Origin: a virus
IMG/VR virus record: IMGVR_UViG_3300033141_000753
Span: 1-29,782 of that record
Length of the DNA: 29,782 nucleotides
Strand: one strand, 5' to 3'
Under the pieces are notes generated by a model. That model was not told the DNA's origin. It made no database searches and was given only the letters and a program-made list of their open reading frames with translations. This document shows, piece by piece, positions 1,088 through 29,490 of this stretch (position 1 is the stretch's first letter; every line of letters begins with the position of its first letter). Position numbers and translations under genes: made by a program.

Positions 1088-1107
1088 TGTGCTCCCTCAA
1101 CAGTAGC

Positions 1108-1130
1108 GCCCCGCCGATTGTCGGCGAGGC
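1108..1130 (-). other. Small GC-rich hairpin in the 74-base gap before the lysis genes
   Basis: CGCCGA (1112-1117) and TCGGCG (1121-1126) pair around a 3-base loop, and after one mismatch a further GCC/GGC pair extends the stem. It lies between the stop of the beta-rich protein at 1162 and the ATG at 1087. No T-run follows on the minus strand, so it is not a classical intrinsic terminator. It could slow or process the transcript ahead of the lysis genes. A stem this short can occur by chance in GC-rich DNA. Confidence 0.35.
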
Positions 1131-1161
1131 GTGGTATCATGCGGCGTGGTGCAGATGCTAT

Positions 1162-4750: not shown

Positions 4751-5084
4751 CTACTCCACCTCCAGCGCACTCAAGACATGCCCGTCTCCGACCGTGCCCA
4801 GTCCGAGCACCTCAGCCCGCGACTGCATTACATCCACGGTCGCCGACTCGATCACACGAGCGAAGGCTGTCTCAGATACGACGGCCTGCAGGAGCGTCCG
4901 ACTGTTGCTACCCTCGGCTACGGAGAACCCGCCGGGGGTGTAGAGATATGCAGAGAGAGCCACCGCCGCTTCTGTCTCCTCTTCTGTTTTCGCGATTTCC
5001 GCCGCATCTTTGAGGGCAGACGCCCTTCGCGGCGTCCGCTGCGTACTTGGCGAGAAGTTCATCTCTCAGGGCTGTGATGTCCAT
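4751..5084 (-). CDS. Small helical phage protein, readable only with a one-base shift
   Basis: The best start is ATG 5084-5082, with GGAGG 5 bases before it. It gives MDITALRDELLAKYAADAAK, a natural phage N-terminus, and then turns into unlikely sequence with scattered Cys and Arg. The other frame from about 5020 down to the stop at 4751 is clearly real (ALKDAAEIAKTEEETEAAVA and onward). Dropping one G of the GGG at 5025-5023 joins them smoothly into a protein of about 110 residues. The ATG at 5062 in the downstream frame has no ribosome binding site and its first 15 residues are the wrong frame of the true N-terminus. So the gene holds a one-base insertion: a real mutation, an assembly error, or less likely a programmed +1 shift. 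Function is unknown. Confidence 0.6.
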
Positions 5085-5086
5085 AG

Positions 5087-5140
5087 CTACCTCCAGAACT
5101 GCGCGAGCCCCGCGAGACGCGCGACCTCAGCGGGGCTCAT
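5087..5140 (-). CDS. Possible 17-residue mini-ORF before the frameshifted gene
   Basis: ATG 5140-5138 opens MSPAEVARLAGLAQFWR and stops at TAG 5089-5087, inside the region of the ribosome binding site of the next gene (GGAGGTAG). The residue pattern is plausible for a helix. No clear binding site precedes its ATG. It could be a coupling leader for the gene at 5084, or chance. Kept at low confidence. Confidence 0.25.
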   Translation of the reverse strand: MSPAEVARLAGLAQFWR

Positions 5141-5159
5141 TGCGATGGTCCGGCTCTCT

Positions 5160-5277: not shown

Positions 5278-5406
5278 TTACTTGCCCTTCGGGTGCTTCT
5301 TCGCCCGGTAGGCAGCATAGGCTCTCTCGGCACTTGCCTTCGTCCGGTAGATACACGGACCATTGCCGATCCGCCACTTCCCATTAGAGCATTTTACAAC
5401 CGGCAT
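5278..5406 (-). CDS. 42-residue conserved small phage protein (GKWRIG type)
   Basis: ATG 5406-5404 opens a protein reading MPVVKCSNGKWRIGNGPC, then a Y-R-T-K-A-S-A-E-R-A-Y-A-A-Y-R-A-K-K tail and TAA. I recognise this form from many phage genomes: a short beta hairpin with W-R-I-G-x-G-x-C and a following basic helix with A-E-R-A-Y. No function is known to me. GGAGG lies 8 bases before the ATG. It is 18 bases after the fibre gene and in the same transcript. Two Cys (6 and 18) might bind metal together, but this is only a guess. Confidence 0.7.
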   Translation of the reverse strand: MPVVKCSNGKWRIGNGPCIYRTKASAERAYAAYRAKKHPKGK

Positions 5407-11057: not shown

Positions 11058-12284
11058 TTACGCAGGCGGACAATTCGCCGTCCAGGGATATCGCGGGTCG
11101 GCGACGAAGCCGCCGTCGATGAGCAAGTCTTCGAGTATCGTGGCATTCCGGTCCCGGACTGCGAAGTCAGTGAAGTCGGGGAGGTAGGGGCGGACCATAC
11201 CTATGCCATGCGAAATTGTACCGGCGAAGCCATTATTCGCGACTGCGTTCACGGCATTTCCAGCCCCGACGAAATCCATTGCCCCATCCACATACTTCCT
11301 GCCGGATAGATCCACCGGCACTCCGGCCCAGTCGATGGTTATGCCCCCGTATTTATAGCCCGATGTGCCCTTGTGGTGGGTGAAAAGGGCTTGGAGTCCA
11401 GTAATAGGACCTAGCCCTGGCCCCCATGCACCTGGCCCAGAATACCATGTTTGCGTTCCGCTGCTACTCAAGTCACCGAAAGTCACCGCCCATGACCACG
11501 GTTGAGTATCAGTGTTCAGCCATTCATCAGACTCTGCGACCTCGGCACTGTACACAGGTTTTCCGTGTCGGCCCGCACTGTATGATGTCTCTTCCTCTCG
11601 CCAGAGCCGTTCTGTCCCTGTGGTTGCTATGCTGTATTTGCGCTCAATGTCCCACGGTTTAGCCGTGTCTGCACAGAAGTAGACGAACTCATGCTTTATG
11701 ATGTAGCCCGGCGCTGCGATCCCCCCGACTTCTATGTAAACGGCGAATGTCAGCTCACAATTCCCCGGTGGTGCGGGTTGGGGATCAGGTCCAGACCAAC
11801 CCGATGTGGAGATGTCCTCTATGCAACAGTTAATGCCGCCCGTGCTAAGTGAGATAGACTGTGTCGGTGCCGATATTAGGATCGGATATTGTTCCTGATT
11901 GTAGACGCCGATGATGCCGCTTACAAAGGATGCTGCCGAAGTCACCTGCGTCTTCGTCTTGCCGTAGTTCGCCGTCGGCGGCCCGTCGTTCAGCGGCCCT
12001 CCATTCAGCGGCAGGTTATTCATAGCTGGTACCCACGGCTCCCCGTTGACTGTCGCCGAACCGTCGCATGTCACCCCGACCGTTACCGTCGTGTCGCAAG
12101 TGTCCGCAGGCTCCGGTTCCAACCGACCATTGATATAGTCTTCGATGACCGCCCGCGCGTCCGCCTCACACCGCGCCTCAAATTGCTTGCGCGGAATTGA
12201 GTAGCCCGCCACAACGCCTGCAAAGAAACCCAGCAGGACCAATGTCCCCACGCCGAACCGGAACTGCCCCTTGAGGCTCTCCAT
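11058..12284 (-). CDS. Membrane-anchored beta-rich protein inside the tail cluster
   Basis: The 408-residue product starts at ATG 12284 with AAGGGG 9 bases upstream. Residues about 11-29 (FGVGTLVLLGFFAGVVAGY) form one hydrophobic segment after a short basic N-terminus, as in a signal anchor or uncleaved signal peptide. A charged helix (33-55) follows, then a long beta-rich Cys-containing region with no family I recognise. It is the first gene after the predicted promoter and leader RNA at 12304-12430. A membrane anchor is out of place for a tail-fibre protein assembled in the cytoplasm. It may be a host-surface protein made during infection, such as one that excludes other phages, or a tail protein that inserts in the host membrane on entry. 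Both are inference. Confidence 0.55.
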   Translation of the reverse strand: MESLKGQFRFGVGTLVLLGFFAGVVAGYSIPRKQFEARCEADARAVIEDYINGRLEPEPADTCDTTVTVGVTCDGSATVNGEPWVPAMNNLPLNGGPLNDGPPTANYGKTKTQVTSAASFVSGIIGVYNQEQYPILISAPTQSISLSTGGINCCIEDISTSGWSGPDPQPAPPGNCELTFAVYIEVGGIAAPGYIIKHEFVYFCADTAKPWDIERKYSIATTGTERLWREEETSYSAGRHGKPVYSAEVAESDEWLNTDTQPWSWAVTFGDLSSSGTQTWYSGPGAWGPGLGPITGLQALFTHHKGTSGYKYGGITIDWAGVPVDLSGRKYVDGAMDFVGAGNAVNAVANNGFAGTISHGIGMVRPYLPDFTDFAVRDRNATILEDLLIDGGFVADPRYPWTANCPPA

Positions 12285-12303
12285 CGCCCGTCGCCCCTTA
12301 CAA

Positions 12304-12395
12304 TGAAACCCCGGCGGGTCCTGCGTTTGTGAGGACGCCGGGGCCTTGCCGGGGTTTCAATTCTGCCGCTGTTATCCGGCCCTGCGCGTCCTCAC
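12304..12395 (-). ncRNA. Structured leader RNA with two interleaved perfect stems
   Basis: Read on the minus strand, four segments follow in order: A (12395-12386, GTGAGGACGC), B (12359-12348, TGAAACCCCGGC), A' (12338-12329, GCGTCCTCAC) and B' (12315-12304, GCCGGGGTTTCA). A pairs with A' over 10 bp and B with B' over 12 bp, both perfect. The order A-B-A'-B' is that of an H-type pseudoknot with loops of 26, 9 and 13 bases, all long enough; otherwise the stems compete as a switch. B' has a second partner, another CCCCGGC at 12343-12337 that overlaps A', and GTCCT/AGGAC (12336-12332 with 12322-12318) gives a third option. The predicted RNA start (about 12395) is the first base of A. The AAGGGG site and ATG of the membrane-anchored gene follow 3' of B'. 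No ligand class is recognised. Confidence 0.5.
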
Positions 12396-12401
12396 CCTCT
12401 C

Positions 12402-12430
12402 ATTATACCTCTGGTCAGCCACCCTGCAAA
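12402..12430 (-). promoter_or_regulatory. Candidate sigma70-type promoter for the tail-fibre and lysis genes
   Basis: On the minus strand TTTGCA (12430-12425) and a perfect TATAAT (12407-12402) are separated by 17 bases. The -35 box matches TTGACA at 4 of 6 positions. The boxes lie directly after the TAG of the fibre gene (12431-12433), in one of the few real gaps. The start site expected about 7 bases on (near 12395) coincides with the first base of the leader stem. It is the only such combination I found outside coding sequence. Phage sigma factors or activators could also be involved. Confidence 0.55.
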
Positions 12431-13426
12431 CTACGTTGTCGGCGTCCCCAACTTGTCCACCATCACCCGCAGGCAGAGACCGTGCAGGTGCGCCGCCGCC
12501 CCGAGGTTATCTGACCCGTCATTCCCGTCGCGCATGATATTCAGGTGAATACACACATCCGCATCCGCAATCTGAGCTGAGTCAATCGTGAACGCCGACA
12601 TCACCAAACCATGCGCGGTTCCCGCGCTCGTCTTGTAGCCCTGCAGCGTCTGCTGCGCCGCCCCGTTCGTCGCCTCTCCCGCTGCCGTCAGCAGGTACGC
12701 GACCTCCCAATCGCAGTCCTGTGAAATCGTCGGCGAAGACCAGCCAATGTTTATGTCAATGTCCTCGCCGAAGGCTCGGTTCGCAGGAAGCATAACGTTG
12801 CCGACAACGATCTGTTCTTGCCCGTCCGCGAATTCCCAAACGCCCGAAATGCCAAGGTCAGTATACGTTGCCGCCTTAATGCCCGGTGCCCGCAATCCCT
12901 GCGCGGGCACCCAGACCTTCTGATACACGCGCCCAGTTCCCGCAAACGTCAACTCCCCGTCCGCCGCAACCATGAGTTTGTCGGCGGTACCGCCCACCTG
13001 GGTGAACCCCGCGAACGTCGGGCTTGCACTAGTCTGCACGTCCTGGTCTATGTAGCCGTGGTCTGTCCCGTTGCTCCCCCGGTGCGTGGTGTTCAGATCG
13101 ATAGCCGCTTCGTATTCGTCCGTACTCGCCTTCGTGAGGTTTAACGCCACCCGGTCGCCACTGGTGTGAGCAACACCCGCCGTCCCCTCTTGCGCCCGCG
13201 TCACGGTCAACGTCGTTCCCGCCGCCCCCGTCACCTCCACGATCTCCATATTCGGATCGTCGCCAGGGTAGGTGTAGGTGGCGGCGTCAAAGATCGTCAA
13301 ATGATAGTTGAATAGTGCGGGGAGATCGACGATGCTGGCGACCACGATGGACGGGGCAACGTCCGTGCAATCGGCAGCCAACGTGGTAACTGCGTTGTTT
13401 TCCTTCTGCAGCCAAGTCTCTGCCAC
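12431..13426 (-). CDS. Tail fibre protein with conserved N-terminal attachment domain
   Basis: The 331-residue product starts at GTG 13426-13424 with AAGGAG 6 bases before it. Residues about 40-100 hold a module I recognise from many phage fibres: L-T-I-F-D-A-A-T-Y, D-D-P-N-M-E-I-V-E-V-T, T-L-T-V-T-R-A-Q-E-G-T, A-H-T-S-G-D-R-V. It probably docks the fibre to the tail. Residues about 110-170 are a thin stalk (Q-T-S-A-S-P-T-F-A-G-F as in fibre shafts), and residues about 190-331 form a beta-sandwich tip with W-E-F-A-D-G-Q-E-Q-I-V-V-G-N-V. It is probably the last gene of the upstream transcript, since a promoter follows its stop. Confidence 0.72.
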   Translation of the reverse strand: MAETWLQKENNAVTTLAADCTDVAPSIVVASIVDLPALFNYHLTIFDAATYTYPGDDPNMEIVEVTGAAGTTLTVTRAQEGTAGVAHTSGDRVALNLTKASTDEYEAAIDLNTTHRGSNGTDHGYIDQDVQTSASPTFAGFTQVGGTADKLMVAADGELTFAGTGRVYQKVWVPAQGLRAPGIKAATYTDLGISGVWEFADGQEQIVVGNVMLPANRAFGEDIDINIGWSSPTISQDCDWEVAYLLTAAGEATNGAAQQTLQGYKTSAGTAHGLVMSAFTIDSAQIADADVCIHLNIMRDGNDGSDNLGAAAHLHGLCLRVMVDKLGTPTT

Positions 13427-13439
13427 GAGCGTCTCCTTT

Positions 13440-13526
13440 CCAGCTTACTGCTGGCCCGTAAGCGCCGAGTGCGGGGCGTTCAGGACCCCGCACCCCCAGA
13501 AGTGCCCCGAAGTGTCAAGGGCGCTT
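13440..13526 (-). other. Structured 109-base gap between the Gly-rich gene and the fibre gene
   Basis: Three stems are visible. GTGCGGGG (13469-13476) pairs with CCCCGCAC (13486-13493), 8 bp around 9 bases. AAGCGCC (13460-13466) pairs with GGCGCTT (13520-13526), 7 bp, enclosing the first. CCAGC/GCTGG (13440-13444 with 13450-13454) forms a small hairpin just before the AAGGAG of the fibre gene. No T-run follows on the minus strand, so termination is uncertain. The pattern suits an RNA processing or translation-control element. No convincing -10 box is present. Confidence 0.4.
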
Positions 13527-13535
13527 AGAAGGGCG

Positions 13536-13703: not shown

Positions 13704-16172
13704 CTATTGAGCGTATTGCGACGCAGGCATTGCGCCGAGTTGAGATATCCGCTTGTCGATGATCTGCACGACCGCCGCCTGCCCTTGGCGGCCCTTCAAG
13801 CGTTCGACTACAAGCCCGTCCGCGAGGTGAATATAGACGTGGCTGTCGCCGCCGCGAACGCCTCCCGCGCCTGCCGGGAGAACGCTCCCAGATTGCTCCG
13901 GCACAAACAGTTCCGGCCCGCGTTCCCCGATGACATACGCCCGTCCCTTCGTCACCGGCCCCCCGCCGGCCCGCCCCGGAACCTTTGACATCTCGCTCTG
14001 AATACCCTGTATCGCCTGCATCGCCTCTTCCGCTTGCGCCGCGTATCTGTTCCGTATCTTCAGACTCTCCTCGATGCCGGTTCGCAACTTTTCCGGTGTA
14101 TCAGGCCACAATGGGCGCTTTGCCCGTTTGCGCAAACGGTCTATGTGCTTATCCCACCAGTCCCGCTTCTTTTCGGCAGCAGCCAGGGCCTTCTCCGCGT
14201 TAGATAGGTCCCTCGCATACTTGCCCTGTGCCTCCTTCGGCGTCATCCCCTCTACCGGCGGTTTCCATTTCGCCTTGCCGGCAGCGGCCTCGCCTCGGGC
14301 AGCGCTCTGCTGTTGCTCGCGGACCTTCTCCTGCTCTTCTTGCGCTGCCCTCAATTCGTCTCGCGCCGCCTGCTGCTTTGCCGTCTCCCGCTCGATAGCC
14401 CGAGTCAGCCTCTGTTGAGCCTTGATGTTATTCTCTATCGCCTTCTCTACGCGCGCGGTCGCGTCCTCCTCAGCCTGCGCCTGCGCCGCCTTAGCATCAA
14501 GGACCACCTTTTTTGACGCTATGATCTGCTCCGATAGCGCCTTCTGCGCCTTGATCTGTGCCTCCAAGGCATCATCCAGCCGCTTCTGCCCGGCTATGCG
14601 CGCCTTCTCTACCCCCTCGGCAGCTTCCAATTCCGCCTGTCCGATGGCCTCTTTCGCCTCTTGGATTGCTTTCGCCCGATCAAGCGCCCGTAGCCGATCC
14701 TGTTCCTCCCGCGACAAGCCGCGCCGCCTCTCAGCCTCCACGAGCCGCGCGTAGCGGTCCTTCGCTTGCTGTATCTTATCCTGTCCGGTTTTTTCCGCCT
14801 CGGCGATAGCGTCCGCAAGGTCCTGCCGCGCATCGGCTACACGCTGCCCCGCCTCGATTACTCTACCCGACGCTTCTTCAACAGCGCGGGCTGCCGCCAA
14901 TGCCGCCTCGCCCACCGCACGTTCGGCGGCCTCCACTGCCTCTTTCTTCTCTTGCTCCGCCCGGCCGATAGCATCATTCGCATCCTGAGACGCTTCCCGC
15001 GCATCCTCCAAAGCCCAGGTAGCATCCCTATATGCGCGCCTCGCCATTCGCGCCTTCTCATCGGCATCAGCCAGGGCCTTATTCGCCGCATCTACCGCCT
15101 TTGCCACATCCTTATGCGCATCCGCGACATCATCCGACGCATCCGCCAGGTCCGCATAGTCCGCCATCGTCTTCTCAATTTCGCGTTGGTGTGCCTGATG
15201 CTTCACGGTGAGTGCGACGATCACTGCCGCAAGTGCTGTGAGCCCTATAATTACCCAGCCGATAGGAGACGCGGTAAAGGCTACACTCATCGCCGCCCAC
15301 GCCGCCGTCATCGTCTCAAACCCCGCAGCTACGGACGGCGCGATCATCAATATACTACCGAGGCCGAGTAGCACCGGCCCAGTCGCCGTCGCGATCCGCG
15401 TAAGCTCACCCCCCAGGGGCGTGTCGACGAAGCTAATGGCTGCTTTCGTCATCCCCTTCAGCCGCTCTATCAGGCCGCCGGTGTCCGAGAGCAGTCGCCC
15501 TCCGATTGCCTCCAGCAGATCCCCCGCGAGGTTCTTCAACTGCTGGAATGCCTTACTCGCGCTTTGAGCCTCGAACGCGACGTTCTTCTCCTCCTTCGCA
15601 AGCTGATCGTAGACGGCCTGCATCCCCCGCGCCTTGAAGTCGTTCTCGTCAACCATGACACCGACTTCCCGTAGATTGGAGACCGTTCCACTGGCAGTCT
15701 TGCCGAGCATATTCATCGCCGCGACGAGATCAGTGCCCGTCGCCTCGCTCAGATTAGCGGCGGCAACCATTGCCTGTTTCATGGTATCCCGCATCTCGGT
15801 ATACGTTGACCCGACAGCGGTAGCCGCGATCATGTCTTCATCGGCGAAGCGCGTCTTATCTTGGATCGCCGCCGCGTACTTGATGAGTTCATCGGCGCCC
15901 TTACCGTAGATCACCCGCAAGCGGTTCTCAGCATCCTCCTGTTTCATCGCGGCTTTCGTCGCCGCGCCGAGCGCTGCCGTCATCGCTGCGCCGGCGGCAA
16001 CCATCCCCACGCCGACGCGACGGGATAATTGCGCCGTCTCCCCCCACTTCTCGTTGAAGGAAGCCGTCGCAGCCTTGCTGGTGCGTAAGTGCCCCTCAAA
16101 CTGCGTGAACGCCTGCCCGGTTTTGTCATGGCCTTCGAAGATGATGTCGAGAGAGACCTTTTCGTTAGCCAT
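13704..16172 (-). CDS. Tail tape measure protein
   Basis: The 822-residue protein sets tail length during assembly and leaves the tail on DNA injection. The ATG at 16172 has AAGGAGGAG 4-5 bases before it and overlaps the end of the GT gene by 8 bases; the longer reading to 16229 is rejected. Hydrophobic stretches occur at about residues 53-75, 262-285 and 302-323, the last two probably membrane-inserting. Residues about 326-631 are one long Ala/Glu/Lys/Arg-rich coiled coil. Near 736-757 stands the classical tape-measure end motif, G-G-G-P-V with YVIGERGPELFVP, followed by a beta tail. By the usual 1.5 angstrom per residue rule the tail would be about 120 nm long (inference). No peptidase or lysozyme domain is visible. 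Confidence 0.92.
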   Translation of the reverse strand: MANEKVSLDIIFEGHDKTGQAFTQFEGHLRTSKAATASFNEKWGETAQLSRRVGVGMVAAGAAMTAALGAATKAAMKQEDAENRLRVIYGKGADELIKYAAAIQDKTRFADEDMIAATAVGSTYTEMRDTMKQAMVAAANLSEATGTDLVAAMNMLGKTASGTVSNLREVGVMVDENDFKARGMQAVYDQLAKEEKNVAFEAQSASKAFQQLKNLAGDLLEAIGGRLLSDTGGLIERLKGMTKAAISFVDTPLGGELTRIATATGPVLLGLGSILMIAPSVAAGFETMTAAWAAMSVAFTASPIGWVIIGLTALAAVIVALTVKHQAHQREIEKTMADYADLADASDDVADAHKDVAKAVDAANKALADADEKARMARRAYRDATWALEDAREASQDANDAIGRAEQEKKEAVEAAERAVGEAALAAARAVEEASGRVIEAGQRVADARQDLADAIAEAEKTGQDKIQQAKDRYARLVEAERRRGLSREEQDRLRALDRAKAIQEAKEAIGQAELEAAEGVEKARIAGQKRLDDALEAQIKAQKALSEQIIASKKVVLDAKAAQAQAEEDATARVEKAIENNIKAQQRLTRAIERETAKQQAARDELRAAQEEQEKVREQQQSAARGEAAAGKAKWKPPVEGMTPKEAQGKYARDLSNAEKALAAAEKKRDWWDKHIDRLRKRAKRPLWPDTPEKLRTGIEESLKIRNRYAAQAEEAMQAIQGIQSEMSKVPGRAGGGPVTKGRAYVIGERGPELFVPEQSGSVLPAGAGGVRGGDSHVYIHLADGLVVERLKGRQGQAAVVQIIDKRISQLGAMPASQYAQ

Positions 16173-16979
16173 GCGCTCCTCCTTCCGGGGCGGTGACTTG
16201 GCCGCCTTGCATCGCGCCTGTGCCGTCAAGCATGTAATCGCGACACCACGCCGCGAGGTCCTTGCCGTCCATGTAGCCGAGTTCGCGCTGTAAGTCGGCG
16301 AAGCTCAGATCATACAGATCGCCGATAGACAGGCCTAGCCTATCGCGGACGAACGGTAGAAAAACCTCCGGCGGCACTGCAACGCCACCACGATGCCCCG
16401 TCTTCTCCTGCCGCATCCGCGCCTGTTCCCAGGTCTCGATCAATTGTTCGGGGCCGTCGCGGTCTCCAAAGGCTCTTCGGCGAGGCGCGAAGAGTTCGAA
16501 GGCGGCCCGCTCGTATTTCCCCGGTCGCTCACAATACCGGCCCGCGTGGTGATATACTCCTGGACCACCCGCATCTTCAGCTCTGTCGGGAATTCCTCCC
16601 GTGTCTGATACGTGCAGGGTAATGGTCGGCCCATCTCATCCTCCACACCCTCCCATGCCTTTACCGCCTCGCAGAAAAACGACGCCCCGATAGCCACTAT
16701 GTCCGGGGGTATCTCCTCGGCACTTATCCCATCCATCACTGCCGCCTCAGCCGCTGCACGCTGCTCGCCATCTTGTCCGTCCAGCGCCGCTACTACCTCC
16801 GCATCCGTCGCATCCGCCGCCAGGCCAAGGGCTTCCCGCATCCGCTCGTGATAGACGCCCTGCGCCAACTGCCGCGCTTCTGCGAACGCATTCTCCATCC
16901 GCTGAAGGGTCTGGTCCGCCGCGCCGAAGATGAAGACCGCATCATCTACCGGCACCCGCAAGGCCAATGCTACGCGCAC
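16165..16979 (-). CDS. Tail assembly chaperone GT fusion made by -1 frameshift
   Basis: The product is residues 1-155 of the G protein joined to 116 residues from the -1 frame, 271 in all. At 16521-16515 the minus strand reads G GGA AAT in the G frame; slipping back one base gives GGG AAA and then TAC. From there the frame stays open to the TAA at 16167-16165. The sequence after the junction (YERAAFELFAPRRRAFGDRD and onward) reads like real protein, while the unshifted end of G (N-T-S-G-P-P-S-N-S-S) reads like filler. The slippery site differs from lambda GGGAAAG only in the last base. A 7-bp hairpin (16473-16494) follows 20 bases on. GT would bind tail tube protein through T and the tape measure through G. 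The TTG at 16443 is not needed as a start. Confidence 0.8.
16440..16979 (-). CDS. Tail assembly chaperone G
   Basis: The 179-residue zero-frame product starts at GTG 16979-16977 with GGGAGG 7 bases upstream and stops at TGA 16442-16440. It is acidic and helical, as gpG-type chaperones are, and sits between the tail tube and tape measure genes, the fixed place for this function. G binds and stabilises the tape measure while tube subunits polymerise, and is absent from the finished virion (known for lambda). The slippery site is at codons 154-155, so the last 24 codons are read only by ribosomes that do not slip. Confidence 0.8.
   Translation of the reverse strand: MRVALALRVPVDDAVFIFGAADQTLQRMENAFAEARQLAQGVYHERMREALGLAADATDAEVVAALDGQDGEQRAAAEAAVMDGISAEEIPPDIVAIGASFFCEAVKAWEGVEDEMGRPLPCTYQTREEFPTELKMRVVQEYITTRAGIVSDRGNTSGPPSNSSRLAEEPLETATAPNN
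16515..16521 (-). promoter_or_regulatory. Programmed -1 ribosomal frameshift site GGGAAAT
   Basis: The heptamer fits X XXY YYZ exactly (G GGA AAU) in register with the G reading frame: 16979 minus 16517 is 462, a multiple of 3. After the slip both tRNAs can re-pair in at least the first two codon positions. The -1 frame is open for 24 codons before the TTG at 16443 and then through the T domain. A hairpin CTCTTCG/CGAAGAG lies at 16494-16473; its 20-base distance is longer than usual, so its role is doubtful. Confidence 0.8.
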
Positions 16980-20304: not shown

Positions 20305-20736
20305 CTATCCGTTATCCTCGCCGTATTTCGTGGTCATCAGCGCCCTAGCGATCCGGTTCGCGAGCCGTTCCTCTGCCTCATCCCATAGGACTTCGGATAT
20401 CTTGGCGGCGCTCGGGGCGAGCTCTTGCGAGATGCTACGGATGATCGCCCGAATCTCCGAAATAGCCAAGTGGCCCATCTCATGAGCGATGCTGGCTTCG
20501 ACCTCGCGCGCAGTGCGCAGGGTTGCTACCCCGATCTCCGCTTCGAGGAGCTCATCACTCGCAACGATATAAGCCGTAGACTGACCGGCATCTTCCGGCA
20601 TAGCGATGAGATTCTCATCGACCGTATGTAGGCTAAGTTCCCAGTCGCGGAGACATAGGGCATCACGCCACTGATTGATCCACGCCCAAACAGACTTCTC
20701 CGACACCGGCTTCTGTAGAATGGGCTTTCCCGTCAT
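20305..20736 (-). CDS. Small zinc metallopeptidase-like protein (HEMGH)
   Basis: The 143-residue product has H-E-M-G-H at residues 85-89 in a helix (E-V-E-A-S-I-A-H-E-M-G-H-L), the zinc site of HExxH peptidases. A second helix with D-E-A-E-E-R-L-A-N-R-I-A at about 119-130 offers Glu as third ligand, so the gluzincin type is likely. Similar short metallopeptidase-like proteins occur in many phages, with function unproven. There is no signal peptide, so it would act in the host cytoplasm or in the particle. AGGAG stands 6 bases before the ATG; a strong nested hairpin lies just upstream (20760-20835). It sits between head and connector genes, so a role in particle maturation or against a host protein is possible but not shown. 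Confidence 0.65.
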   Translation of the reverse strand: MTGKPILQKPVSEKSVWAWINQWRDALCLRDWELSLHTVDENLIAMPEDAGQSTAYIVASDELLEAEIGVATLRTAREVEASIAHEMGHLAISEIRAIIRSISQELAPSAAKISEVLWDEAEERLANRIARALMTTKYGEDNG

Positions 20737-20759
20737 GATACTCCTATTGGTCGTAGATC

Positions 20760-20835
20760 AATTCCGGGGCCGCCTTGCTATCTCTCACGAATGGGGAGGC
20801 CCCAAGGAGGTGGTTCGTGTGGCGGCCCCGGAATT
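20760..20835 (-). other. 15-bp perfect inverted repeat with nested stems and an anti-SD sequence
   Basis: On the minus strand AATTCCGGGGCCGCC (20835-20821) pairs perfectly with GGCGGCCCCGGAATT (20774-20760). The 46-base loop contains a second stem, CACGAA (20819-20814) with TTCGTG (20791-20786), and inside it a third, GGGG (20803-20800) with CCCC (20796-20793). Between them lies CCACCTCCTT (20813-20804), which contains the ACCUCCUU of the 16S rRNA 3' end and could pair with the AGGAG of the next gene (20745-20741). The element starts 2 bases after the TAA of the head protein gene and ends 23 bases before the metallopeptidase ATG. No T-run follows, so plain termination is unlikely. Translational control or transcript processing is the better guess. 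Confidence 0.6.
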
Positions 20836-20837
20836 TC

Positions 20838-21311
20838 TTATTCCGCGTCGATGGGCTCTGACTTCTTCGGGCGTCCAACCTTGCGCGGCTCCTCCATATC
20901 TGCGGGCGTTACCGCCTGCACGGGGATTACATCGCCGAGCATTGCGAAGCCCTTCGCCACTGTCGCCTCCAGCTGCTCCAAAACCCCGCGCGCACCGGCC
21001 ACATCCCCCGCATCCAGGCGCTCCGCCACCTGTTGGCTATGTGTATCTACGGTCCTCTCAAGTAGTACAACCACGGAGCTTTTCCCCACGCGCTTCAGAT
21101 CATCAGCAAGGGCGGCCCATTTGGCATTCGCATCCGCCAGTTCATCCGAAACTACGAGCTCCGGCGGAATGATATCCTTTGACGAAGGCTGTTTCAGTGT
21201 GCCGCCGGCCGCCTCCGCCAATTTGAGAGGCGCGCCCTCGGGCAGAAAGCCCTCGTAAAACTTCCCGGCATATCTGTGATCTGGCGGGAATGGCAGCCAT
21301 GCTTTCGGCAT
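20838..21311 (-). CDS. Head-region protein of unknown function with GRPKK tail
   Basis: ATG 21311-21309 with GAGGAGG 8 bases upstream gives 157 residues, MPKAWLPFPPDHRYAGKFYE and onward; a reading from 21476 overlaps the upstream gene without a site. Residues 1-45 look extended and Pro-rich, residues 55-130 are helical (A-D-A-N-A-K-W-A-A-L, S-Q-Q-V-A-E-R-L-D-A-G-D). The C-terminus K-V-G-R-P-K-K resembles an AT-hook core. It follows the capsid and decoration-like genes. A DNA-contacting head or neck protein is possible; I recognise no family. Confidence 0.6.
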   Translation of the reverse strand: MPKAWLPFPPDHRYAGKFYEGFLPEGAPLKLAEAAGGTLKQPSSKDIIPPELVVSDELADANAKWAALADDLKRVGKSSVVVLLERTVDTHSQQVAERLDAGDVAGARGVLEQLEATVAKGFAMLGDVIPVQAVTPADMEEPRKVGRPKKSEPIDAE

Positions 21312-21333
21312 GGAACCTACCTCCTCTCTCTCA

Positions 21334-21759
21334 TCAGGCACCGATACCGGCACCGGGGTAGTAGCTGATCGTGTATGCGGCATCAGCGAGATCACCACTA
21401 GTTGCGGTCCCGCCCTCCGTCGGGGCGATCTGTAGTACATCGCCCTCCGCGACTTCCAAAGCCGCCGCAGTCTCACTCAACGTCAGCGGCCATGGTACTT
21501 TGGCCGTGATGGCAGCGGAGCCGCTTACATCGCTATCGGTCGTCTGGGTCGCCACGGTTGTAGACCCAGACCCCGCGCTGCCGAGATTCGTCACCGTACT
21601 CGTGTGGATGTCCGTGGCATGTGCAGCGACCGCACTCGAGGTCACCAAGTGGATGCTGTTAATCACGCACTTGATGGGCGCGCGCCAGAATGCTAATGGC
21701 GTCCCTGATGCATCGACGGCTCCCATATGCACGACTACGGATTGCAGTTCGGACTGCAT
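21334..21759 (-). CDS. Likely capsid decoration or head protein
   Basis: The 141-residue product is beta-rich with many Ser, Thr, Ala and Gly and almost no Lys or Arg. It contains V-V-V-H-M-G-A-V-D-A-S-G, A-F-W-R-A-P-I-K-C-V-I-N-S-I-H-L and a C-terminal A-Y-T-I-S-Y-Y-P-G. The place directly after the major capsid gene and its likely high expression (GAGGAGG before the ATG) fit a decoration protein that stabilises the shell. The family is not one I can name, so the role rests on position and composition. Confidence 0.5.
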   Translation of the reverse strand: MQSELQSVVVHMGAVDASGTPLAFWRAPIKCVINSIHLVTSSAVAAHATDIHTSTVTNLGSAGSGSTTVATQTTDSDVSGSAAITAKVPWPLTLSETAAALEVAEGDVLQIAPTEGGTATSGDLADAAYTISYYPGAGIGA

Positions 21760-21783
21760 GTGCTTTTCCTCCTCTGTCGTTGG

Positions 21784-21807
21784 TTAGGCGTCTGTTTAGG
21801 CGTCTGT
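21784..21807 (-). repeat. Exact 12-bp tandem duplication at the end of the capsid gene
   Basis: TTAGGCGTCTGT occurs twice in direct contact (21784-21795 and 21796-21807). On the minus strand this makes the capsid gene end in ACA GAC GCC TAA ACA GAC GCC TAA: the stop is doubled, with T-D-A between. Read-through of the first stop would add only three residues. The duplication is exact, so it is probably recent replication slippage. Confidence 0.85.
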
Positions 21808-22656
21808 GACGAGCTTGATTCCGGAAGAATTATCGGCGATGCCGACGCCCCAGAACCCGGTCATCAGCAGTTCCCACTGTTGCTTGTTCTTGTTCCATTC
21901 CGCTTCGAGTTCGAAGTCCTGCTTCCAGGAGATACCGATTGCGTCGCTGGTGAACATCGCACCCGCGAGGTCCGCGCCGGCGTTCGCGGTCTGAACGTCT
22001 TGGGTCAGGAACCAGTTCATGCCGAGCAAGTCGTCATAGAAATACTGCCCGTAGAAGCCCTCGGCAAGCGGGTTCTTACTAGCGTCGACCAGTGGCGAAC
22101 TCGACTCAGACATGAGATCAGTCCACTGGTGGGTATGAAGGACGCAGAAGAACGGTGGACGGGCCTTGGCTGTCATGAGAGTATCGTATGCCGTCCGAAT
22201 GTCGGCAAAGACGATGTCGGTGCCCGTGGAACCCTGCGACGCAGAGAAACTGGCGAATGCCGAGCAGACGTCGACGTTGACCTTCGTCCCCATCGATGCC
22301 GCCAATTCCTCTCCGGCCTTCACCCACAATTGCAGTTCATTGGCACCACTATTGATCGCCTCCTTGGTGATGTGCGTCCCTACTTGATGTTTCGTCGCGG
22401 CCACATCGACAGTCGTGGGGTCGAGGGCCTGCCACGCCTGATACTCCACACCTTCCCCAACGTCGCTCGCGGTCAGTGTATTCAGCCGCCCGAAGGTAGC
22501 CGTGGACCCCTGCACATTGCGCAGGTCAGCGATGTCTAGGGCCATCTGCGCTGCGTCACCTGGTGCGAAGATGGTCCGGTTATGGAGCCCCAGCTTCGCG
22601 ACCTGCAGCGCGGTGTCGATATACTCAGAGATCGTGCTTGTCGTTGTCGCTGCCAC
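21796..22656 (-). CDS. Major capsid protein
   Basis: The 286-residue protein follows the scaffold gene and precedes the decoration and connector genes, the canonical place. The chain suits an HK97-type fold: N-terminal arm and helix (S-T-I-S-E-Y-I-D-T-A), V-G-E-G-V-E-Y-Q-A-W-Q-A-L as E-loop region, T-K-E-A-I-N-S-G-A-N-E-L at the start of the spine helix, then H-T-H-Q-W-T-D-L-M in the peripheral domain and F-W-G-V-G-I-A-D-N at the end. It would form the hexamers and pentamers of the head. The start is GTG 22656-22654 with GAGGTG 7 bases upstream. No cleavable delta domain or prohead protease was found, so the separate scaffold probably does that work. Confidence 0.82.
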   Translation of the reverse strand: MAATTTSTISEYIDTALQVAKLGLHNRTIFAPGDAAQMALDIADLRNVQGSTATFGRLNTLTASDVGEGVEYQAWQALDPTTVDVAATKHQVGTHITKEAINSGANELQLWVKAGEELAASMGTKVNVDVCSAFASFSASQGSTGTDIVFADIRTAYDTLMTAKARPPFFCVLHTHQWTDLMSESSSPLVDASKNPLAEGFYGQYFYDDLLGMNWFLTQDVQTANAGADLAGAMFTSDAIGISWKQDFELEAEWNKNKQQWELLMTGFWGVGIADNSSGIKLVTDA

Positions 22657-22673
22657 TTTCCTTCACCTCAAAC

Positions 22674-23459
22674 TCAGATGCCGCGCACCCGCACGCCTTT
22701 GCCTGCGAGATAAGTTTTCATCTGCTTTGCATCCATCTCGCCGATGGTGCCTGTTGGGCGTGGTGCCGGCGGATTTGTTTCTGTCGCATTGCTCGGCCCG
22801 CCGATTGCAACGGGCTTTCCTTCCAGCCGGGCAGCGAGTGCTTTAGCTGCCTCGCTGTCCGGGTATTTCTCGGCAAATTGCTCCGGTGTCGTCGCGGCAA
22901 GCTCAGAGAAGACCTGCTCTCTAACCGCCTTTACATCCGCCGCATACTGCTCCCGCACGGCGGTGATACTCGCCTTGATTGCATCTTCGTCCGCGCCCTT
23001 GACTTGATCCTTGTAAGCGTTCGGCAGATCAGGCGCGTCTCGCAAGATGATATCCGCTCGTAGTACACTGAGCTTCGCCTTTGCAAGGTCTGTCTCGGCC
23101 TTCTCACGGGCCGCCTTCGCGGCCTCCGCCTCTTCCCTCAGCCTTTCCGACTCAGTGAGTTCGGCCTTCCGCTTCTCCTCCGCCTCAGCTTCCAAGGCGG
23201 CGAGCTTCTCCTGCATCGCCTTGTTCGCGGCTTCTGCCTTCCGGCGGGCCGAGGCCGCCGCTGCGTCAATGTCCGCCTGCGTATACGTCTGCCCGCCCGC
23301 AGGTGGCGGGGGTACCTCTACTGCTGGTGTTGCCTGGGGTGTTGTCCCAGGGTCCGGCGTTGAGTCTGGCGTCGAGTCCGGCGCTGGTACTGGTGCTGGT
23401 ACTGCATCGCCCGCAGGGGTTGTAGACTCGGTCCCTGTGCCGAGATTGTCGTCGGGCAT
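22674..23459 (-). CDS. Capsid scaffolding protein
   Basis: ATG 23459-23457 with AGGAGG 6 bases upstream gives 261 residues; the longer reading to 23654 runs within the minor head gene and is rejected. Residues 1 to about 60 are Pro/Thr/Asp-rich and disordered (S-T-P-D-S-T-P-D repeats, A-P-V-P-A-P). Residues about 62-130 are a highly charged coiled coil (A-R-R-K-A-E-A-A-N-K-A-M and onward). A further helical part and a basic C-terminus (G-K-G-V-R-V-R-G-I) follow, which in scaffolds contacts the capsid protein. Position just before the capsid gene completes the case. It guides procapsid assembly and leaves before packaging. Confidence 0.85.
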   Translation of the reverse strand: MPDDNLGTGTESTTPAGDAVPAPVPAPDSTPDSTPDPGTTPQATPAVEVPPPPAGGQTYTQADIDAAAASARRKAEAANKAMQEKLAALEAEAEEKRKAELTESERLREEAEAAKAAREKAETDLAKAKLSVLRADIILRDAPDLPNAYKDQVKGADEDAIKASITAVREQYAADVKAVREQVFSELAATTPEQFAEKYPDSEAAKALAARLEGKPVAIGGPSNATETNPPAPRPTGTIGEMDAKQMKTYLAGKGVRVRGI

Positions 23460-23483
23460 GATACGCCTCCTATAGTTCGATTC

Positions 23484-23500
23484 GGGCGGACTTGCCGCCC
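23484..23500 (-). other. Short GC hairpin between minor head and scaffold genes
   Basis: GGGCGG (23484-23489) and CCGCCC (23495-23500) pair around 5 bases, just after the stop of the minor head gene. No T-run follows on the minus strand. It may mark an RNA processing or attenuation point that lets scaffold and capsid be made at a different level from portal and minor head protein. A 6-bp stem is weak evidence alone. Confidence 0.3.
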
Positions 23501-23503
23501 AGG

Positions 23504-24436
23504 TTAGTTCTTCTTGCTCAAGCGACCCGCCTCGCTCACATAAGGTAACACCGAGTGGGCGCAATTCGGGTGGAATAGCCCCGCCGCCGTCGCCTCGCCA
23601 ATCGTCGCATAGCCCTTCGTCTCTCCGGTGATGCTGAGTATCTCGTTCTCCCACGGGATACAGAGTTCGCAGGCAGCCGCGTGGGTGCTGACCTTTACAA
23701 GATCATATCCGGCCTCAAGCATCCGGTTCTGCGTCCCGTGCCGTTGGGCCTCCTGCGATACCGTCCGCGCGACCATTCGCGAGTAACTCTCCATATCCCA
23801 CGCCTTACCGGCCTTGTCGACGAAACTCGTGATGCCGCGCTTGCGCAAGTCCTTGAGAAAGGTCTTTGCGGCCTGCTCCGCCGTCTGCCCCTCGGCGAAG
23901 GCGGCCTGCAGTGCCTCCAGGCTCGCGTCGCGGATCGCCAGTTGCTCGCCCATCGTCGCAGCGAGGTCAGTCCCTTGCATCTTCGCAATCCGCCGCGCAC
24001 GAGCCACTATATCCTCTATCCGTTGAGCGACATAGTTGTTCGCCTCGCCTAAGCGGAGCGCCGCGTTCTCGCCGATGATGCTGATAGCCTCCGTGTGCAT
24101 CCGCGCAAGCCCCAGGTCCATCGGTGTGACGAGACCCGGATGTGCCGCCCGACTCAATCCTCCCGGCGCAAGATGCCCGTCCGTGACGCGCATCCCATTT
24201 TGATAAAGCGTCGGCAAGTGGAAGTCAATCCATGCCCTGCTCTCAGCCTCAAGCGTCGCCAATATTCCGCGTATCTGCGCAAGCTGCTGTTTCTGGAAGG
24301 CGGCCTTCCACTCTGTGATATTCCCTTCAGCGAGGCTTTTCAGAATACGCCGTTCCGCGTCCGCGTAAGTCTGCGCGAGCTGCTCCGCGACCGCCCGGAG
24401 TTCCGCCGGAGTATACGCCCGCGCAACCGTCGGCAT
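23504..24436 (-). CDS. Minor head (minor capsid 2 / gpF-like) protein
   Basis: The 310-residue protein has the signature of Phage_min_cap2 and Mu-F relatives in its C-terminal half: W-D-M-E-S-Y-S-R-M-V-A-R-T at about 213-225, E-A-Q-R-H-G-T-Q-N-R at 229-238, Y-D-L-V-K-V-S-T-H (244-252), a C-E-L-C pair (256-259), P-W-E-N-E-I-L-S, and the closing A-A-G-L-F-H-P-N-C-A-H-S (285-295). The Cys/His set (C256, C259, C292, H294) could hold zinc. The N-terminal half is helical. The protein is thought to bind the portal inside the head. The ATG overlaps the portal stop by one base (TAATG). Confidence 0.85.
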   Translation of the reverse strand: MPTVARAYTPAELRAVAEQLAQTYADAERRILKSLAEGNITEWKAAFQKQQLAQIRGILATLEAESRAWIDFHLPTLYQNGMRVTDGHLAPGGLSRAAHPGLVTPMDLGLARMHTEAISIIGENAALRLGEANNYVAQRIEDIVARARRIAKMQGTDLAATMGEQLAIRDASLEALQAAFAEGQTAEQAAKTFLKDLRKRGITSFVDKAGKAWDMESYSRMVARTVSQEAQRHGTQNRMLEAGYDLVKVSTHAAACELCIPWENEILSITGETKGYATIGEATAAGLFHPNCAHSVLPYVSEAGRLSKKN

Positions 24437-26007
24437 TAGCTACCCGCCCCAGGGCCTACTTGGGTATAAGGCGGCCCTAAGGTCGCAGGCGGGCTAGGCA
24501 GATTACTCGCCATCTCCGCCGCGATACGATCCGCCTTGGCTTGCGCCTCCGCTTCTGTCAGGCCGTCCATCGCCGCGAGTGCCGCCGCAAGCTCTTGGGC
24601 CCCCGCGTCAAGTCTCATGGTCTGTATCTGCGCATCCTCGTACTCGTCGGAGGGGAGCCCATCCTGGAATGTCACTGTTATATCTTGCGGTGCTAATGGG
24701 AGAGGCTTCGCGTCACCTGCGAACTGGACCATCGGTGAGTTCGCCAATTGCGTCGCAAGTGCATATATCTGTTGGAGCCCCGGCCCATATGTCATCTGCC
24801 GTGACCGTACGACGGTCTGTGTCGGCGCTTGCGATAGCTTCAGCGCCCGCCCGGAAATAGGCCCGCCACTCTCCGGCGGAATGAGCGCCCCGATGTCGAT
24901 ACCCGTCACCGCCGCATACTCCTGCTTGCGACTTCTGATAGCATCTATGACCGCCGATAGGCTCGCATCCCATACTAGCATCTCGAGATTCACATCATCT
25001 AAGCGTTCCGTTGGCAGGTACTTCCGGCGCATATCGATCTCGCCCTTTTCGTCTTGGATCGGCGGGCCGACCACCCACGGGATCGTGAATTCACTAAGCA
25101 CCTCCGCCTCTTGTGTAATGCGGTCATTCAGTTCGGCCTGTAGCGACTCTGTGCCGGCGTAGTCCGACATCCCATAGAGCGTCGTTCCCAGGCCCGGATA
25201 TAGCTGCTCATCAGTAGCGATGTTCGGAATATGCACTATCGGCAAACTGTCCAAGCCTGTCGCTTGCTCCTCCGGTGTTACCTGCGGATCGGCGAGTTCT
25301 GGAATGATTGATAGATCGCGGCGGTCTTTCTCGGCGTCAAAACTGTAGCCGCTCCGCGCATCCCCGGATAGCTGGAAGAGACTATTGACGATCCATCCCT
25401 CGCCCCCGCGCAATTCGTGCCGCTCCCGCCACAAGTAGTTCTTCTCACCGCGCGACAAGACTTGGTCGATATTGCAGGCGGCGATTTCGTTAGCATTGAG
25501 CGGGGAGACCTCCGGGAACCAACAAGCGGGGTTGACCGCGCCGACCCGCACCGTGCGGCCGTCTGGCGAGTAGACCTTCAATACAACGTCGCCCCGATAG
25601 CTCCCAGTCACCGCTGCTTGTAGGTGCATCTTCCGCAGATTATCTCTGGCGATGAGATTGTCAATGAATGCCTGCGTCGCCTCTTCGCCATCAGGTGCCG
25701 AGACGGTCGCCGGCTCCCCGAAAAGGCGCGAACTCAGAAGCCGCGTAAGCGCTCCGCAGAGGTTGACGGTGATATAGGCATGGCTTGCGTCTTGTCGCCA
25801 CTTGCCCGCCCAGTCGCCGCCGTAGATCGACTTCACGAATACGTCCTCGTGCTGCCCGAGATAGAGGGCCGCATTGCGCGCATAAGCCTGCAGGCGCGCC
25901 GTATGGCCCTCCGGGGGCCATGCTTCGCCGCTGCTTCCCATCATGCCGGCTACCACGTTATGCCCCCTCCTCGTAAGCCAATCCCACGCGCTCGAAAGTA
26001 TGCCCAC
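24436..26007 (-). CDS. Portal protein (SPP1 gp6-like)
   Basis: The 523-residue protein is the dodecameric DNA channel at the head vertex. It shows the portal layout: W-D-W-L-T-R-R near the start, R-L-L-S-S-R-L-F-G-E-P wing region, A-V-T-G-S-Y-R-G-D-V-V-L-K-V-Y, then a long central part with D-R-I-T-Q-E-A-E-V-L-S-E-F and I-P-W-V-V-G-P-P, and A-V-T-G-I-D-I-G before the clip/stem helix. Length is normal for SPP1-type portals. GTG 26007-26005 is the start, with AGGGAG 8 bases upstream. It stands 4 bases after the terminase and overlaps the minor head gene, the fixed order of this module. Confidence 0.88.
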   Translation of the reverse strand: MGILSSAWDWLTRRGHNVVAGMMGSSGEAWPPEGHTARLQAYARNAALYLGQHEDVFVKSIYGGDWAGKWRQDASHAYITVNLCGALTRLLSSRLFGEPATVSAPDGEEATQAFIDNLIARDNLRKMHLQAAVTGSYRGDVVLKVYSPDGRTVRVGAVNPACWFPEVSPLNANEIAACNIDQVLSRGEKNYLWRERHELRGGEGWIVNSLFQLSGDARSGYSFDAEKDRRDLSIIPELADPQVTPEEQATGLDSLPIVHIPNIATDEQLYPGLGTTLYGMSDYAGTESLQAELNDRITQEAEVLSEFTIPWVVGPPIQDEKGEIDMRRKYLPTERLDDVNLEMLVWDASLSAVIDAIRSRKQEYAAVTGIDIGALIPPESGGPISGRALKLSQAPTQTVVRSRQMTYGPGLQQIYALATQLANSPMVQFAGDAKPLPLAPQDITVTFQDGLPSDEYEDAQIQTMRLDAGAQELAAALAAMDGLTEAEAQAKADRIAAEMASNLPSPPATLGPPYTQVGPGAGS

Positions 26008-26011
26008 ATTC

Positions 26012-27379
26012 CTATCTCCCTCGGAATTCTTGAGGTGCCTTGAGGACTGCTGTCCGCCGCAGTTGCCCCATCACAACGTATCGCAGCGCGTCCAGTGCAT
26101 GATCGAACTCTTTCGCCGGGTCCTGGTCCTCAATCGGGTTGCCGTCTTTGTCCTCTCGCCAGTGATACTCGGAGAGTTCCGTGAGCAAGTTCGGCGCGGC
26201 GTTGCCTAACACCCGAAACTTGTCTCCGGCGATAAGCGCCTGCACGGCGCGCACTCCAGGTATGCGCTTATTGTCGGCCTGCACCGCCGGGAGGCCCGCC
26301 CGTTGAAAGGTCAGGATTGCATTGGCATCTTCCGGATCGCAGAAGAACCGCTCAATCTTCCACTTCTCCCGCAGAGCCGTCGCCGTCGATAGCCAGTCAT
26401 TGTCCGGCGTACCTGAGATCGTCATTCCGCGCTCGTACACTTCGTCCAGCACAAATACGACGTCCTCGGCTGTTATGCCGATAACGATGATACAGCCGGG
26501 GCTCGTGACACCCCAGTCGACGCCCGCAAGCACCCGGACGATCATGTCTGGGACCGTACTGACTACGTGCTTGCTTGCGTCGAAGTCCTTGTAGACCAGC
26601 CCAGCGAGCGCCACGAACAGAGCGAGCATTTCCTGCCGGTAGAAGTCAGTCCCGATCCCATAGCTCTCTTCAAGGGCTTCGAGGAAGTCGGGCTCGATCT
26701 TGTAGAGCGGATTGTCGTGCGTCGGCCAATGATGGAAGCCATATCGCGCTCGTCGCTCCGGCGACCAATTCTCACGCCCCTCCACGAATGTCCGATAGAC
26801 CCAGTTCTGACCCTTCGGCGTCCCGGTGATCCAGCCCCGGTGCGGCATTCCCGGCTGTCGAATGCGCCCCTGGCAGACCAGCCAAACATCCTCCCGGCAA
26901 AGCGCCGCCTCGTCGATCCAAAAGGAGCCGACCTCTGCGCCTCGAAGGCTGTCCGCGTCTTGAGCATGTCCAAAGTAAACCTCGGAGCAGCTACCCGTCC
27001 TATCCACGAGCCCTGGAAAGATAATCCGGTTTTCCGATTTCTTTTCAACGGCAACGAGCGTATCTCCCCACCAACCGATAACCTTCTTCAGCACGAGCCG
27101 CGTCGAACGATTCAGCATTCGGAACGTCGGCGCGACCACCAACTGCTTGATACCCGGATAACGGATCGCGTGGCGGATAACCTCGAATGCTCCGACCTCC
27201 GTCTTGCCGCCACCAATGCCCGCGATAGCCGCCCGATATCGCGCCGCGTCCTCACAGAATCGCCGCTGCCCGATATGGGGCCCGTAATGGCGACTGATGA
27301 ACTCGCTGAAAGGCTCTTGATGCCCTGGTCTATCCGGCGGCAAGTCACTCGCCGTCAGGGGCCTCGCCTCCGCTACCAT
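26012..27379 (-). CDS. Terminase large subunit
   Basis: The 455-residue protein packages DNA with ATP and cuts it. Counting from ATG 27379: Walker A G-I-G-G-G-K-T at 54-60, Walker B F-W-I-D-E-A at 153-158, coupling motif T-G-T-P-K-G at 185-190. The nuclease half has the RNase H-like Asp set: G-V-D-W-G (D288), F-F-C-D-P-E-D (D348) and F-D-H-A-L-D-A-L-R-Y (D426, D430). All expected motifs are present, so it should be active. ATG 27379 has GAGGG 8 bases upstream; TTG 27394 and ATG 27385 are possible but worse placed. It overlaps the small subunit gene by 35 bases. Concatemer cutting type (pac or cos) cannot be told from this. Confidence 0.93.
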   Translation of the reverse strand: MVAEARPLTASDLPPDRPGHQEPFSEFISRHYGPHIGQRRFCEDAARYRAAIAGIGGGKTEVGAFEVIRHAIRYPGIKQLVVAPTFRMLNRSTRLVLKKVIGWWGDTLVAVEKKSENRIIFPGLVDRTGSCSEVYFGHAQDADSLRGAEVGSFWIDEAALCREDVWLVCQGRIRQPGMPHRGWITGTPKGQNWVYRTFVEGRENWSPERRARYGFHHWPTHDNPLYKIEPDFLEALEESYGIGTDFYRQEMLALFVALAGLVYKDFDASKHVVSTVPDMIVRVLAGVDWGVTSPGCIIVIGITAEDVVFVLDEVYERGMTISGTPDNDWLSTATALREKWKIERFFCDPEDANAILTFQRAGLPAVQADNKRIPGVRAVQALIAGDKFRVLGNAAPNLLTELSEYHWREDKDGNPIEDQDPAKEFDHALDALRYVVMGQLRRTAVLKAPQEFRGR

Positions 27380-27869
27380 CGTCATCGCCCTCAAAGTGAT
27401 TCAGCGGGTCATTCTCTGAGAAGACAGGGAGTGAGATAGCGGTAACGTTGACCTCGCCGGAATGGTCGTGAGCCTCCTTCACCGTCGCCACGCCACGCGC
27501 CGCCGCGATCTTCTCGCGGATAGCAGTCATCTCTCTACGCGCACGGCTCCGGACATCTGCCCTCGTCGCTCGATCCGCCGCAATGGCCGCCTGAGCAGCA
27601 AGGTCCTGCCTAAGTCCCTGCAAGTATTCGGCTCGCGCATTGATCGCCCCATTGTCGACGATCTCCGCGACAACGTCGGAGTAGGCCTCCAACGCTCTCT
27701 TGGCCCAGTGATGATCGTGCCGGGAGCCGAACTTAGCATTGACGCCGTTTGCGATGCTCCGATATGTGTACACGCCCTCACAAAAGAGCCGCCACGCCTC
27801 CGCGCGATGCGCTTCCGGCGAGTTGCGCCCATTGTTTCGGGGTGTGGTTCGCCCCGTCTTGACTGCCAT
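27345..27869 (-). CDS. Terminase small subunit
   Basis: The 174-residue protein has a basic N-terminus (V-K-T-G-R-T-T-P-R-N-N-G-R) and a helix-turn-helix at about 24-46 (A-W-R-L-F-C-E-G-V-Y-T-Y-R-S-I-A-N-G-V-N), which would bind the packaging site on phage DNA. Residues about 78-125 form long helices for oligomerisation, and the acidic C-terminus (F-E-G-D-D-D-G-S-G-G-E) probably contacts the large subunit. GGTGA lies 7 bases before the ATG. The gene follows the methyltransferase by 3 bases and overlaps the large subunit gene, so position confirms the call. Confidence 0.8.
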   Translation of the reverse strand: MAVKTGRTTPRNNGRNSPEAHRAEAWRLFCEGVYTYRSIANGVNAKFGSRHDHHWAKRALEAYSDVVAEIVDNGAINARAEYLQGLRQDLAAQAAIAADRATRADVRSRARREMTAIREKIAAARGVATVKEAHDHSGEVNVTAISLPVFSENDPLNHFEGDDDGSGGEAPDGE

Positions 27870-27872
27870 CGT

Positions 27873-29198: not shown

Positions 29199-29490
29199 TA
29201 CACTTGCGCCCCTTGCCCCGGCAACTCAGCTTCATATCGTTGTAGACAATGGGCGACACCGGGGCAGACGAGTCAGCTGAGTAGGTCTGGCCGAAGTAAC
29301 ACTCCGGTAACCACTCACCCTGCACGGGGTCGCCGGGCTCCACGGGCTCCAACACGAGGTTGTCCAGGTATTCGTCCACGGCGGGATCGCGATACTCTTC
29401 GTCGGCACCCACAGCCTTCGCCGTCCCGATACCCAAGGCTACCCCGATCATCCCGAGGAAGCCGCTCTTCATGAAGTCTCTGCGTCGCAT
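29182..29490 (-). CDS. Small exported protein with a twin-arginine (Tat) signal
   Basis: ATG 29490-29488 with GGAGGAG 3-6 bases upstream gives 102 residues; the reading from 29517 adds nine residues without a site. The N-terminus M-R-R-R-D-F-M-K fits the Tat motif (R-R-x-F-x-K), followed by a hydrophobic stretch (S-G-F-L-G-M-I-G-V-A-L-G-I-G) and an A-K-A cleavage site near residue 25. The mature part of about 75 residues is acidic, with three Cys (one near 63, two near the C-terminus). No cofactor or enzyme motif is seen. A Tat substrate in a phage packaging block is unusual. It could be a host-envelope factor such as an exclusion or adhesion protein, or a captured host gene. Confidence 0.6.
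   Translation of the reverse strand: MRRRDFMKSGFLGMIGVALGIGTAKAVGADEEYRDPAVDEYLDNLVLEPVEPGDPVQGEWLPECYFGQTYSADSSAPVSPIVYNDMKLSCRGKGRKCNGLQA

Follow-up and report, generated by a model that had tools for sequence, protein, structure and literature searches.

A hairpin upstream of a late-gene ribosome site in an unclassified phage, and its probable place among five intercistronic hairpins

Gene order around the 12.3-kb gap

The window, that is, the whole stretch of DNA analysed here, is the complete IMG/VR virus record IMGVR_UViG_3300033141_000753 (29,782 bases), in which all assigned genes lie on the minus strand. These include terminase (26012-27394), portal (24436-26007), minor capsid protein 2 (23504-24436), major head protein (21796-22656) and tape measure (13704-16229) genes, as well as a tail-fibre-like gene of 331 aa (12431..13426), the N-terminus of which matches tail-fibre PHROGs. 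A gap of 146 nt (12285-12430) separates the latter from a downstream gene of 408 aa (11058..12284), which has a hydrophobic segment at its N-terminus and is without a Pfam or PHROG match. Further genes without known families lie beyond the tail-fibre-like gene. No lysis family was found in the ten genes scanned, and the designation of this region as a "lysis half" in a preliminary description of the same DNA is unsupported by them. The late genes are presumably transcribed as a single structural operon.

Two separate observations concern the other end of the record. A 42-aa gene at 5278-5406 (MPVVKCSNGKWRIGNGPCIYRTKASAERAYAAYRAKKHPKGK) has a weak match to phrog_31267. At 4751-5084, the frame starting at ATG 5084, which has a good Shine-Dalgarno (GGAGG), ends after 58 codons, and the longer open frame, which begins at 5062, lies in a different register; this mismatch is possibly a frameshift or a sequence error.

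The hairpin at 12.3 kb

The gap at 12285-12430 contains a hairpin on the minus strand (12304..12359), the outer stem of which, B:B', is made of 12 perfect base pairs (12359-12348 with 12315-12304). The preliminary description had pointed to this repeat, to its rarity and to a second CCCCGGC as an alternative partner, and all three statements were confirmed. The repeat is exact (12304-12315/12348-12359). Perfect repeats of at least 12 bp, with loops of up to 110 nt, averaged 0.22 per window in 200 dinucleotide shuffles, and two are present here, both of them intergenic; at a threshold of at least 10 bp, three were observed against a mean of 3.2 per shuffled window. Because CCCCGGC is present in two copies, two partners are available to the GCCGGGG arm, and a second pairing joins CCCCGGC(G) at 12309-12316 to 12336-12343. 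Use of the second copy gives a shorter hairpin, T (12306..12346, minus strand; 12346-12336 with 12316-12306), which is followed by a UUUCAUUG-like tail and competes with stem B for the GCCGGGG arm.

Hairpin B begins 71 nt past the preceding stop codon, and its 3' end lies 19 nt from ATG 12284. The ribosome site that precedes this ATG (TTGTAAGGGGCGACGGGCG, 12285..12303, minus strand; Shine-Dalgarno at about 12301-12295) is immediately 3' of the hairpin. There is good support for a structured RNA in the space between these two late genes.

Folding of hairpin B gave -32.4 kcal/mol on the minus strand (z -4.2) and -42.1 kcal/mol on the plus strand (z -6.75), the plus-strand fold being the more stable. 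Such a difference would suit an element acting at the DNA level or from the plus strand, such as a protein-binding palindrome, an antisense RNA hairpin or the remnant of a small mobile element. We regard this as very improbable, since every assigned gene is on the minus strand, the sister hairpins described below have different arms, and no DNA similar to the gap was found in phage or plasmid records.

Five hairpins in five long gaps

Every minus-strand stem with a span within 90 nt was ranked by strength, long gaps being defined as intergenic stretches of more than 70 nt. The five long gaps (1088-1161, 5085-5159, 12285-12430, 13427-13535 and 20737-20837) represent 1.7% of the sequence and each contain a strong hairpin. 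These hairpins occupy ranks 1, 2, 3, 4 and 6 (20760-20835, 12304-12359, 1107-1131, 13467-13495 and 5104-5139, in that order), stem B:B' being second, and far above chance. The strongest coding-strand stem, located in the gap two genes past the major head gene, is a perfect stem of 15 bp (20760..20835, minus strand; -44 kcal/mol, z about -4.9), with a stop codon 2 nt before it and ATG 20736 23 nt after it. The three remaining sisters, also on the minus strand, are stems of 11 bp at 1107..1131 (ATG 1087, 19 nt on), 10 bp at 5104..5139 (ATG 5084, 19 nt on) and 11 bp at 13467..13495 (GTG 13426, 40 nt on). A shared element comprising the 12.3-kb and 20.7-kb hairpins was considered and rejected, as their arms differ.

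The placement of these hairpins was more regular with respect to the next gene. The distance from the 3' end of the stem to the following start codon was 19, 19, 19, 23 and 40 nt, which places four of the five at 19-23 nt, just before the Shine-Dalgarno, and the distance from the stop codon to the hairpin ranged from 2 to 71 nt (30, 20, 40 and 2 nt for the sisters). Finding four of five start-codon distances within 5 nt has a P of 0.014 under random placement, the spread of all five being less telling (P 0.09). Rank and placement together indicate that the 12.3-kb stem is a member of a class of intercistronic hairpins situated immediately before the ribosome site that follows, in a set of five from one genome. 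As one of five gap hairpins, the 12-bp hairpin needs no switch as its explanation; it is a real hairpin of an ordinary kind. Such hairpins are indeed common, judging from the approximately threefold enrichment seen in a survey of 54 other phage loci, based on crude gene calls, in which 38 of the strongest stems were in intergenic gaps against 11.6 expected. A hairpin in five of five long gaps is nonetheless unusually complete in this genome.

Interleaved helix and candidate promoter

The preliminary description had gone further, proposing that a promoter drives a leader RNA from about 12395 and that this leader adopts the A-B-A'-B' order of a pseudoknot or a two-state switch. The second repeat that it named, of 10 bp, is exact (12329-12338/12386-12395). 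The corresponding helix A:A' (12329..12395, minus strand; 12395-12386 with 12338-12329) is interleaved with B:B' and is extended by GGGCC/GGCCC beyond a small internal loop. An interleaved 10/12-bp pair was found in 0 of 200 whole-window shuffles, a point in favour of a pseudoknot or switch. However, when the hairpin was kept and its loop and flanks were shuffled, an equally strong interleaved helix was obtained in 3% (minus strand) and 7% (plus strand) of cases, and helix A is therefore only marginally above chance (conditional P about 0.03 given B). Moreover, an interleaved helix stronger still is found at the sister hairpin of 20.8 kb, on the plus strand only and extending into coding sequence, which shows that such partners arise easily, as chance predicts. 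The simplest explanation of the A:A' complementarity is that it results from GC-rich, partly duplicated arms, with their two CCCCGGC copies.

A pseudoknot or multi-state leader switch would work as follows. In an RNA from about 12395, the extended A:A' would form first; as B' emerges, either a pseudoknot (A:A' with B:B') would be completed or A would be displaced, and in the T fold the first CCCC would be released and could mask the Shine-Dalgarno GGGG; the winning fold would then determine translation or termination. Predicted folds are partly in line with such a course. Prefix folding indeed gave the extended A:A' first (-32.3 kcal/mol) and B:B' later (-41.9), and no simple pseudoknot score on the minus strand is better than that of A plus B (-35.4), with loops of 26, 9 and 13 nt that are sterically possible. 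Forced folds, first codons included, reached -51.6 (A), -50.5 (B) and -50.4 kcal/mol (T), a spread within 1.2, with a mean Shine-Dalgarno openness of 0.58, 0.67 and 0.30, respectively, the first CCCC being paired with the Shine-Dalgarno GGGG in the T fold. This near-equality of A, B and T, within about 1 kcal/mol, makes a pseudoknot or switch possible but unproven. Against it, one of 16 shuffled windows reached a pseudoknot score of -35.1, within 0.3 kcal/mol of that obtained here, and the whole fold of 12400-12285 is no more stable than shuffles (z -0.83).

The candidate promoter, a sigma-70-like match TTTGCA-17-TATAAT (12402..12430, minus strand; 10/12), is present as described, and with normal spacing from TATAAT the RNA would start near 12395. 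The score of this match is nevertheless at the window-wide chance level, with two sites of at least 10/12 in the window versus 1.98 +/- 1.41 in shuffles, under polymerase and sigma rules that are guesses for this phage. The four remaining long gaps carry similar hairpins but no promoter match of comparable quality. A short leader peptide at 12395 (GTG AGG ACG CGC AGG GCC GGA TAA) was also considered and rejected, its Shine-Dalgarno not being properly spaced.

The interleaved order of the helices and the promoter sequence thus held, while the leader starting at 12395 as a pseudoknot or switch was not well supported, given a promoter at chance level and a marginal helix A. We consider a switch of this kind unlikely. 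Slightly more doubtful still is its fullest form, a novel phage leader that combines A:A' and B:B' in a pseudoknot and has a third fold to cover the Shine-Dalgarno, thereby setting expression of the membrane-anchored protein and the later tail genes.

Relatives and database searches

No relative keeping the 12.3-kb gap region was found in IMG/VR, GTDB genomes or phage records, where relatives of the flanking genes were confined to L004, the fragment L002 and terminase-only relatives. L004, with matches of 36-46% identity and no leader, provides the only homologue of the 408-aa downstream gene (36% identical). This homologue starts 2 nt past its upstream gene and is leaderless; compared with it (L004:4598-5476), the gene at 11058-12284 has about 109 extra N-terminal residues, the membrane segment among them. 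L002 matches 20596-29378 with complete DNA identity and hence offers no variation. Neither GTDB genomes nor the complete records of 22 terminase relatives yielded a relative, and Rfam 15 gave no family matches at gathering score. A terminase relative (51%), L003, carries its strongest and fourth strongest stems in the gap that lies ahead of the gene just before terminase.

A search for the arm pattern matched nine phage contigs, none of which carried a homologous element. Unrelated phage contigs repeatedly contain GAAACCCCGGC...GCCGGGGTTTC hairpins, some of which are intergenic. As a further observation, a near-identical GAAACCCCGGCCACTGCCACGGGGGGAGCAGTATTGCCGGGGTTTC hairpin stretch was present in five phage contigs from separate datasets (L006, L010, L011, L013 and L014).

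Interpretation and comparison with known systems

From the strength and position of the five hairpins, we consider it probable that the 12.3-kb element is an intercistronic hairpin of the phage late operon, one of five, placed between a stop codon and the next ribosome site. Its function is most likely the punctuation of a long mRNA. From a mechanistic point of view, the hairpin may slow or partly terminate RNA polymerase past the upstream gene and/or protect the RNA end, and it may also keep the following Shine-Dalgarno from being paired to upstream RNA, in other words insulate the ribosome site. The putative internal promoter at 12.4 kb may, in addition, feed the downstream tail genes. A hairpin in every long gap, mostly about 20 nt before the start codon, suggests a genome-wide setting of late-gene dosage, and the recognition of the 12.3-kb element as an ordinary hairpin helps to mark expression units in an unclassified phage.

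Cleavage offers another route to divided messages. The intercistronic R sites of phage T7 are processed by RNase III and leave hairpin-protected ends. Similarly, the 56-nt hairpin could be cut by an RNase III-type enzyme, which would split the tail-fibre message from the downstream message. The size and intergenic position of the hairpin resemble those of the T7 sites, and the length of the GC stems (12 and 15 bp) would suit such processing; stem length nevertheless varies from 10 to 15 bp among the five, and we judge this explanation unlikely.

Punctuation by the 12.3-kb hairpin could involve termination, and several terminator features were compared. A GC-rich stem-loop downstream of a gene, as in intrinsic L-shaped terminators, is present, although the hairpin was not listed by the terminator scan. 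The tail after the short stem T is UUUCAUUG (5/8 U) and that after the full stem is UUGUAAGG; a canonical U-tract does not appear to follow the stems, and termination is thus not assured. The full B:B' stem is a strong hairpin without a U-tail, as in I-shaped terminators, but the distance quoted for these from the stop codon is at most about 50 nt (PMC12288462), as compared with 71 nt at 12.3 kb. In view of the tail and of this distance, membership of the hairpin among terminators is not claimed.

Three known systems can be compared with this hairpin. With leader attenuators and H-type pseudoknots it shares the A-B-A'-B' order and helices that are mutually exclusive or coexist, but here the second helix is marginal, the promoter is putative and there is no Rfam family match. 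With bidirectional intrinsic terminators of the GAAACCCCGGC...GCCGGGGTTTC kind it shares the arms, as found in unrelated phage contigs, and a GAAA/UUUC stem base, but here the tail is weak after both the short and the full stem. The nearest documented parallel is TtsaD, in the alr-groEL1 operon of M. tuberculosis, where a U-less (I-shaped) intercistronic hairpin accompanied by internal promoters lowered the expression of a downstream reporter, its mode of action being left open by the authors (PMC5335608). Although the present hairpin belongs to the late operon of a phage, stands 71 nt from the stop codon and has only putative activity, it shares with TtsaD a GC-rich stem, the lack of a clear U-tract, an intra-operon location and the proximity of an internal promoter, which is putative here.
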